Origin: Thermoguttaceae bacterium
GTDB taxonomy: Bacteria; Planctomycetota; Planctomycetia; Pirellulales; Thermoguttaceae
Direction: 5' to 3'
DNA length: 64,000 nt
NCBI GenBank assembly: GCA_017447745.1
Contig: JAFSMW010000041.1
Coordinates: 1-64,000, forward strand
This document shows, one piece after another, positions 49,180-51,531 of this stretch. The notes beneath the pieces are model-generated. The model saw nothing but the letters and a program-made list of their open reading frames with translations. It was not told the DNA's origin and did no database searches. The first letter of the stretch is position 1. Each line of letters starts with the position of its first letter. A program made the translations under genes and the position numbers.

Positions 49180-51531
49180 ATGAAAAACAGCAAAAAATTT
49201 GATTCTGTAATCCTTTTACGCGGGATTCGGGAGAATTGTTTGAATAATTTAGACGTCGATTTTCCGATTGGGGGGCTGACGGTTGTCTGCGGTCCGTCGG
49301 GGTCGGGCAAGACGACGCTGGTTATAAATACGCTCTTTGCGGAGAGTCAGCGGCGTTTTATCGAGACTGTCGGAACGCGCCGGCGAGGCAAGTTCAGTCT
49401 TTGGAAGCGTCCGGACTTGGACTCAATTGAGAACCTGCCGCCAGCGGCAACTGCGTCAGAAAAAGTTGATTTAAATCAGACGCTGGCTCAGCTTTGCGGC
49501 ATGGACGACGCCTTGGCTCTGGCGTTTTCCCGCCATTCGGTTCCGATTTGTCCTCATTGCGGTATAAAAGTCCCGCCCGGCGGCGCTGCGTCGGCTGCGG
49601 AATATTTTGAGAGTCATTACAGTGGTTGCCGCGCTCAAATAGCTTTTGTCCCGTCAGCTGCGATATCGGAATACGCTCAGCGCGGGTTTTCCCGCTGGCT
49701 GATTGAACGCGATGCTAAAGTGGAACTGGTCGACAGGAATGAGTTGCTTCAACTTAACGCTCGCAACTTGCAACATGCAACTATCCACGTCTTGGCTGAC
49801 CGCTTAACATTTCGCCCCCGCGACAGCCGAACGAAGGAGTCGTTTGAACTGGCGTTTGTGGAATCGGGCGGGAAAGCGGTTGTGTTTATCGAGACGCCGG
49901 AGGGAACGGTCAAGCGATACGCCGGGCAGGGCAGAACGTGTCCTCAATGCGGACAGGAGTTTTCTGACAATGCCGTCGAACGATTTTATCTTTCGGAACT
50001 GCCGGAGGAACCTTCCGAACGCGACAAAATCCTGGCGTACCAGCTCGACGGGAAGAACCTGCTGGAATGGTACGAGTTGTCGGCAGATCAAATTGCTGCG
50101 AGAAGCGAGGGTTTGAAAGGCGGTAATGAAGTGAGCGAAGCGGTGCGAAGCCGCACGGGCAATAGGACAAGGTTTTGTCTCCGAAAAGCTGATTTCGGCG
50201 TTACCCACTTTCAAGCAGGAACCGACCTTGTCGGCGGAATTACGCATTCGCCGTCAGGCGAACTTGTTCATGGTTGCGCTTTTGGGGGTTCGCCTTCGGC
50301 GAACTGCGTAACTTCACTCCCGTTGGTCGTTTCGTTACCGCCTTTCATTTCTTGCCTACTGCCTATTGTCTCTTGCCTTCAGGACGCAGCTTTGGGCTAT
50401 ATGCCTCTTTCCCGCAAGGCGGAAACGATGTCGGGCGGGCAGATTCGGCGGGCGGCGATGGCGTCGATGTTTGCGGGCGATTTGGTCAATATGCTCTACG
50501 TATTCGACGAGCCGATGGACGGGGTTCCGCCGGAAAACCGCCCAGCTTTGCTTTCTGCTTTGCTTCGTTTGCGCGACAGAGGGAACACGGTCGTGGTTGC
50601 CGACAACGATGCGTCGCTTATTCAGGCGGCGGACTGCGTTGTAGAATTGGGAGACAAAAGGCAAGAGATAACAGGCAAGAGGCAAGAGCTTACTACTGCC
50701 TACTGCCTACTGCCTACTGCCTCCATAACAATTTCTCCCGGCAAAATCACAGCCATTGCTGGTCCCGCCGGGTCGGGAAAGACTACCCTTCTGTCTCAGC
50801 TGGCGGGAAAGCCAGTTCCTCCTGACAGAAAACGTCCTGTAACAGGTCTGGACGCGTTTGAGGACGTGATTCTGGTAGAACGGAAACTGGAACGCAAGCC
50901 GCCGAGGGGCTGTGTGGCGACGTATCTGGGAATTTGGGATTCCGTCAGAGCGGAATTGGCGGCAACGCCTGAATCTCAAGCCAGAGGGTTTACGCCGGGC
51001 GATTTCAGTCTCATGAGCGGGAATGGTCGCTGCCCTCAATGCAAAGGCGAGGGCGTGTTGACAATTGATCTGGAATACCTTCCAGAAATAGAAATGGTCT
51101 GCAGCGAGTGCATGGGGGAACGCTTCCAGAAGGAGTATTTACAGCCCCGGTTTCGCGGTCTGAACGCGGCAGAAATTCTTCGTCTGACGGTTCAAGACGC
51201 GTTTTCGTTTTTCCGAAACATTCGTAGCGTTCAGCTCCCCCTGACGTCGTTGATTGACATCGGTTTGGAGCGTTTGGAATTAGGACAGCCGATCAAGACG
51301 CTTTCCGCCGGAGAGAGAAGCCGGCTGGATTTGGCGAAAGCTCTTCAGAAGATTTACAAGCAGAAAACCCTGTTCCTGCTGGACGAACCCTCTGCTGGGT
51401 TGCACGATTCTGAACTGGATAAATTAATAGAGTCATTTCGCCGTTTAACCGCTTATGGTCATACGGTTGTCATGATTGAAAATAATCCCTGGATGGTTCA
51501 GCAAAGCGACGTAGAGCTGCGGCTGGGATGA
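49180..51531 (+). CDS. UvrA-like ABC ATPase with in-frame repeat insertions
   Basis: A 783-residue protein; ATG 49180 follows GGAGAAAG. It carries two ABC modules: Walker A GPSGSGKTT (about 38), signature SGGQIRR and FDEPMDG; then Walker A GPAGSGKTT (about 528), signature LSAGERSRLDLAKAL and LLDEPSAGLHD. Cys motifs of UvrA zinc modules are present (CPHC, CPQC, CPQCKGEG and CSECMGE). It is shorter than UvrA (~940), lacks a recognisable UvrB-binding region, and is closer to UvrA2-type paralogues for DNA damage or drug resistance. Two stretches (about residues 312-401 and 493-515) are translated repeat elements, see separate entries, and the first sits inside module one before its signature motif. 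Activity is therefore uncertain. Confidence 0.78.
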   Translation: MKNSKKFDSVILLRGIRENCLNNLDVDFPIGGLTVVCGPSGSGKTTLVINTLFAESQRRFIETVGTRRRGKFSLWKRPDLDSIENLPPAATASEKVDLNQTLAQLCGMDDALALAFSRHSVPICPHCGIKVPPGGAASAAEYFESHYSGCRAQIAFVPSAAISEYAQRGFSRWLIERDAKVELVDRNELLQLNARNLQHATIHVLADRLTFRPRDSRTKESFELAFVESGGKAVVFIETPEGTVKRYAGQGRTCPQCGQEFSDNAVERFYLSELPEEPSERDKILAYQLDGKNLLEWYELSADQIAARSEGLKGGNEVSEAVRSRTGNRTRFCLRKADFGVTHFQAGTDLVGGITHSPSGELVHGCAFGGSPSANCVTSLPLVVSLPPFISCLLPIVSCLQDAALGYMPLSRKAETMSGGQIRRAAMASMFAGDLVNMLYVFDEPMDGVPPENRPALLSALLRLRDRGNTVVVADNDASLIQAADCVVELGDKRQEITGKRQELTTAYCLLPTASITISPGKITAIAGPAGSGKTTLLSQLAGKPVPPDRKRPVTGLDAFEDVILVERKLERKPPRGCVATYLGIWDSVRAELAATPESQARGFTPGDFSLMSGNGRCPQCKGEGVLTIDLEYLPEIEMVCSECMGERFQKEYLQPRFRGLNAAEILRLTVQDAFSFFRNIRSVQLPLTSLIDIGLERLELGQPIKTLSAGERSRLDLAKALQKIYKQKTLFLLDEPSAGLHDSELDKLIESFRRLTAYGHTVVMIENNPWMVQQSDVELRLG
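50113..50349 (+). mobile_element. inverted-repeat element inside the UvrA-like gene (237 bp)
   Basis: TTGAAAGGCGGTAA at the left and TTACCGCCTTTCATT at the right match the ends of 35212-35572 and 39243-39358. Inside is CACTCCCGTTGGTCGTTTCG, also found at 6908 and 56715. The reading frame passes through without a stop (237 = 79 codons). Native UvrA sequence stops at about EGLK and resumes at QDAALGY. Confidence 0.75.
50351..50382. repeat. heptad array translated within the UvrA-like gene (first)
   Basis: CTTGCCTACTGCCTATTGTCTCTTGCC directly follows the inverted-repeat element and is read as part of SCLLPIVSCL. Confidence 0.8.
50656..50723. repeat. heptad element translated within the UvrA-like gene (second)
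   Basis: GGCAAGA units then TACTGCC units (three in a row) form an imperfect inverted repeat read as KRQEITGKRQELTTAYCLLP. It sits between the end of ABC module one and Walker A of module two. Confidence 0.85.

Follow-up and report, generated by a model that had tools for sequence, protein, structure and literature searches.

Conserved bacterial genes normally avoid tandem repeats other than those with a period divisible by three. The window analysed here (a 64,000-nt stretch on contig 245 of a 4.35-Mb Thermoguttaceae genome assembly, G000, of 249 contigs) carries heptanucleotide arrays inside a UvrA-like gene. An earlier note on this DNA described two translated insertions in that gene. We ask how period-7 arrays come to lie in frame in such a gene, and whether they are one-off insertions or belong to a wider phenomenon.

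The UvrA-like gene and its variable sites

The host gene (49180-51531, plus strand) encodes a protein of 783 aa and contains no in-frame stop, inserts included, as the earlier note had stated. Both ABC modules retain their P-loops (GPSGSGKT at residue 38 and GPAGSGKT at 528), signatures (SGGQ at 418 and SAGE at 709), and DEP motifs (443 and 735). The protein matches TIGR00630 (UvrA) with an E value of 6.5e-123 and 411.8 bits, below the curated cut-off of 729.8, and a domain search of the 783 residues detected neither PF17760 (UvrA interaction) nor PF17755 (DNA-binding), both of which are found in its paralogues; we therefore regard it as a UvrA-like two-module ABC ATPase and not as a standard UvrA. 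Each of the four genomes of the genus has an orthologue, and among 97 other family genomes sampled only one contains a match at E <= 1e-60. The dN/dS ratio against the three congeners, with the variable sites excluded, is 0.065-0.09, which indicates strong purifying selection and implies that the gene is translated and functional. Judging from the reading frame, the repeat inserts are presumably read as extra residues. The predicted structure has a mean pLDDT of 51.6.

The congeners (G001, G002, and G003) match metagenome bins, two of them assigned to Thermoguttaceae bacterium (from water buffalo omasum and goat duodenum) and one to an uncultured planctomycete. A codon-by-codon comparison of the four orthologues locates four hypervariable sites, three of them internal and one C-terminal, and all length differences at these sites are multiples of three. 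Site 1 (49741-49782, plus strand), which had been missed previously, is a degenerate heptad cassette (GAGTTGC ... CTCGCAAC). In G001 the corresponding cassette is 84 nt longer, that of G002 combines arrays of GAGTTGC with arrays of CTCCTCA, and that of G003 is built of CTCGCAA. Site 2, an inserted or replaced segment spanning about 50095-50379 on the plus strand, adds 252 nt relative to G001 and G002, that is, 84 codons rather than the roughly 90 residues first estimated, and 201 nt relative to G003. The insert is thus missing from two of the three congeners; G001 and G002 have only a short stub at this position, and G003 has its own heptad cassette there.

Site 3 (50650-50724, plus strand) is the inter-module cassette, and its placement between the modules is confirmed. 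Its left arm (50660-50688) consists of stop-free GGCAAGA-type units on the purine strand, and its right arm (50693-50722) is a perfect 30-nt (CTACTGC)4CT; if translated, the interval 50650-50740 would encode a peptide including ...QELTTAYCLLPTASITISPGK... It is occupied in every one of the four species, by differing contents: GGCAAGA and TACTGCC in the window, a GC-rich payload with CTCCTCA in G001, element A (described below) with TACTGCC in G002, and AATTAGC in G003. As the fillers are all repeat-derived and that of the window is the shortest (129 nt versus 174, 198, and 147 nt in the congeners), the comparison gives no basis for the 23 added residues once attributed to this element. The DNA fold of site 3 has a z score of -1.9, and no known RNA family is found in the window at the gathering threshold. 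At the C-terminal site, the G002 protein carries an extension grown out of a native GAGTTGC. Clostridial homologues, which bear on the question whether unrelated organisms share the extra segments, have neither site 1 nor site 2, and the segment between their modules is a different one. Because the congeners have the same sites filled with different heptads, we conclude that the sequence undergoes turnover in place and does not record a one-off insertion.

Site 2 had been described as a 237-bp inverted-repeat element followed by a heptad array. The inverted repeat and the heptads (degenerate units of the TTGCCTA/TTGTCTC type forming the right arm, 50353-50379, plus strand) stand, while the supposed single element is a composite in which a dispersed palindrome of ~140 bp (element A, 50114-50347, DNA fold z -4.93) contains a nested 98-bp dispersed repeat (element B, 50140-50237). 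The 17-nt terminal inverted repeats of element A (50114-50130 and 50331-50347) are 94% complementary. The sampled sequence holds 7 near-full copies of element A among 64 BLAST hits in total, as well as 22 near-full copies of element B, and the whole site-2 segment has 70 matching stretches in its own genome. The flanks of element A copies show no consistent target-site duplication, and no transposase is linked to the element.

Several other features were observed near this gene or among its relatives. An intergenic cassette (49040-49110) lies between a rhomboid-like gene and the UvrA-like gene, and its heptads differ across the four congeners (GTTAGGA, GTTAGTG in two, and ATTAGCA). Just past the window, a second UvrA-like gene of 826 aa (L101:9278-11755, equivalent to C245:73278-75755) has a heptad cassette as its inter-module linker in all four congeners, with different arrays in each. 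Contig C44 of the same genome contains a 2427-aa open frame (L118:408-7688), a fused double UvrA with two UvrA interaction domains, two UvrA DNA-binding domains, and an in-frame CTCGCAA array near the N-terminus. Within the window, two adjoining paralogous BBP2-type beta-barrel porin genes occupy 51610-54738 on the minus strand (the first assigned by Pfam, the second alike by eye), and tandem repeats of 108 nt, imperfect and possibly coding for Sel1-like repeats in a protein, extend from 62907 to the window end at 64000.

Shared positions and exchanged contents across the genus

The census covered ~1.67 Mb from four gut Thermoguttaceae genomes, all of them metagenome-assembled and each represented by roughly a tenth of its sequence; arrays were found by an autocorrelation scan, and genes were called by open frame and cross-species conservation. 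The scan yielded 288 arrays at lag 7, and no lag outside the multiples of 7 gave more than 30; a scan of 391 kb gave 71 arrays at lag 7 versus at most one at lags 5, 6, 8, 10, 11, and 13. The genome contains 161 occurrences of three consecutive TACTGCC units and none of the reversed control, and the period of 7 is thus no product of chance. Among 101 family genomes, 6 contain TACTGCC arrays, and a phylum sample of 294 genomes includes 3 with CTCGCAA arrays. Both repeat segments reported for the UvrA-like gene are real, but they are instances of a genus-wide phenomenon.

For 232 array sites, the orthologous interval was placed by BLAST of both flanks. It also bears an array in 226 of 407 pairs (55%; pairs were counted in both directions and are not all independent), versus 18 of 759 random control points (2%) and 67 of 697 non-coding ones (10%). 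Occupancy is highest for sites within genes (94/127, 74%). The heptad type differs in 161 of the 226 occupied pairs (71%), and the agreement in the remaining 65 is modestly above chance (38 for shuffled partners, maximum 51), so that some contents are evidently inherited. The heptad spectrum is species-specific (p about 1e-10), with TACTGCC prevailing in G000 and scarce in G003. Since occupancy is shared and heptads differ, we conclude that sites persist while their contents turn over, each lineage having its own spectrum.

Most arrays lie outside genes. Those in frame within genes comprise 43 well-supported sites, which correspond to at least 18 independent loci in the sampled sequence; 13 of the 18 are filled in two or more species, and 10 of these 13 have different array sets. 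The hosts have no function in common and include MnmE, CarA, phosphoglucomutase, an AMP-binding ligase, GH106, alkaline phosphatase, PMT-like glycosyltransferases, and further UvrA-type proteins. CarA, the ligase, phosphoglucomutase, and the 826-aa UvrA-like protein have their insert between or behind the matches to Pfam domains, and MnmE and alkaline phosphatase have it within one. In the window, a further in-frame cassette occupies 60739-60823 (plus strand) of a GH106-like gene (58597-62481), with the same type in G001 and G002.

Frame and openness are kept in all 93 testable ortholog pairs, in a test for which the frame in the tested genome need not be open; length differences at other sites are spread 119/80/75 across the three residues modulo 3. 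In 11 in-gene arrays, uniform units would give an in-frame stop that each array escapes via a variant unit, such as GGGAATG for GGGAATA or AATGAGC for AATTAGC, a count that is partly conditional on open frames having been chosen. The TACTGCC array had been thought tolerable in genes because it is stop-free. It does lack stops in every frame, but it is not special in being tolerated, as arrays of GGGAATA, AATTAGC, and GGAGTTA are also found in genes.

Array architecture and possible origins

The arrays follow a common grammar. All but one of 123 exact runs have a CT in the pyrimidine-strand unit; the run starts with CT in 69 cases and ends with it in 65, and the modal length of 30-31 nt corresponds to (CTN5)4CT, with a preference for four units and with several N5 variants. 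Inside genes, the element-A palindrome is absent from most inserts, which are 31-33-nt heptad arrays. A typical cassette has a purine-strand array on the left, a variable payload, and a pyrimidine-strand array on the right, and neighbouring array pairs are in this orientation 46 times, reversed once, and in the same sense 9 times.

Mixed-unit arrays repeat exactly at unrelated loci, which points to copying of whole arrays. For example, the series CTCCTCA-CTCCTCA-CTCCTAA-CTCCTAA is found at window position 13415, in site 1 of G001 and site 2 of G003 within the UvrA-like gene, and in a G003 glycosyltransferase gene. The alkaline phosphatase locus provides one clean empty site, where a native CTCGCAA seed has gained exactly 21 nt.

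Some candidate explanations were rejected. The two arms do not behave as a co-evolving hairpin stem, as their heptad types are uncorrelated (4.98 versus 4.84 for shuffled arms) and the fold of site 3 is weak. A G-quadruplex explanation of the Xanthomonas/Nostoc type is not applicable to the main units (CTCGCAA, CTACTGC, and CTCCTCA), which contain no GGG or CCC run; only minor units have one. A shared reverse transcriptase was considered as a driver, and RVT_1 occurs once in G000 and is absent from G002, so that such an enzyme is not a genus-wide requirement.

Heptad cassettes are dispersed across the genus, occupy shared positions, and exchange their arrays and payload between species, and we think it probable that they spread by copying, with selection keeping the frame. 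Cassettes may be seeded at native near-heptads and lengthened by 7-nt slippage, and they would then spread and be replaced via copying between dispersed arrays, by gene conversion or template switching. Selection would purge any copy that causes a frameshift or introduces a stop, and the surviving segments would be translated as extra residues, often in linkers. Most likely the cassettes have no function, being selfish or mutational DNA, with diversification of linkers as a by-product.

Slippage could in principle account for the arrays without any mobility, each one arising from its own near-heptad seed through a 7-nt polymerase register. The 21 nt gained at the alkaline phosphatase site and the native GAGTTGC from which the G002 C-terminal extension starts both favour such growth, and slippage has already been proposed for heptanucleotides, which in many bacteria outnumber all other longer repeats (PMC4679880). 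However, slippage alone would not be expected to produce the same few units genome-wide, identical mixed-unit arrays at unrelated loci, the payload elements A and B, or the 46:1 orientation bias, and we consider it a fairly unlikely explanation of the whole. It is also unlikely that a dedicated system places copies of standard 30-bp (CTN5)4CT arrays at fixed positions and exchanges one for another there, housekeeping genes included, so that linkers are continually rewritten. The convergent orientation and independent arms would, hypothetically, be compatible with repeats being added at a break from its two edges.

The constancy of place in spite of differing array types, together with the top rank of in-gene sites in conserved occupancy (94/127), could suggest that the cassettes are adaptive and have been selected as a means of diversifying protein linkers or tuning expression. 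We find this doubtful, as contents are unrelated between species, most arrays lie outside genes, the hosts share no function, and inheritance combined with tolerance could also give shared occupancy. Misassembly of repeats into genes, or decay of the genes themselves, is very improbable even though all four genomes are metagenome assemblies, given that the same sites recur in four separate assemblies, the frame is kept in 93 of 93 pairs, the ATPase motifs are intact with dN/dS about 0.07, and the hosts include housekeeping genes such as CarA and MnmE.

Relation to known repeats and significance

The in-place exchange, and the copying that we favour, can be set against previously described repeats. 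Rickettsia palindromic elements insert in frame in protein genes (Ogata et al. 2000, 2002, as summarised in the review PMC10969869). The likeness drawn to them earlier, compared by description only, holds insofar as repeated DNA of another element type is placed in frame in unrelated protein genes, presumably adding residues, and element A is likewise a palindrome of ~140 bp. It does not extend to stability, as the inserts here have arms and payload replaced at fixed sites between species. The core of the present cassettes is instead a ~30-bp heptad array with an exchangeable payload, frequent outside genes; only element A provides a palindromic unit of about 100-150 bp, and most in-gene inserts lack one.

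Dispersed heptanucleotide tandem repeats are known from cyanobacteria as STRR. One citation places STRR in an RNA gene. The GGGAATC repeats of Xanthomonas and GGGGA(C/T)T repeats of Nostoc prefer four units, are enriched outside coding sequence, and form G-quadruplexes (PMC4692102), and the TAACTGA repeats of Beggiatoaceae are intergenic (PMC4679880). All of these share with our arrays the period of 7 and genome-wide dispersal, and those of Xanthomonas and Nostoc also share the four-unit preference. Here, by contrast, many units coexist around a common CT anchor, the main ones have no GGG run, and the arrays form convergent cassettes with payload that lie in frame in genes and are exchanged between species, whereas the known repeats are reported to be mainly intergenic. 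Element A resembles MITE or REP-like sequences in being a dispersed palindrome with terminal inverted repeats and no coding capacity, but it is found as the payload of a heptad cassette, with no clear target-site duplication or linked transposase. The closest system in effect is that of the Rickettsia palindromic elements, and the closest in material are the Nostoc and Xanthomonas heptanucleotide repeats and the Beggiatoaceae TAACTGA repeats. In the literature searched, which took in little of the subscription literature, we found no account of heptad cassettes that lie in frame, keep their sites, and exchange their contents; for the exact peptides and DNA units, the matches listed were to the DNA string only, in what are by title unrelated human, viral, or cancer studies.

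The cassettes place a period-7 grammar within the reading frame of UvrA-type, metabolic, and tRNA-modification genes; species share the sites, and the contents are rewritten. They constitute a natural experiment on the ways in which mobile repeats turn into protein sequence, and the CT anchor, the four-unit length, and the convergent orientation supply testable rules for the origin and spread of bacterial heptanucleotide repeats.
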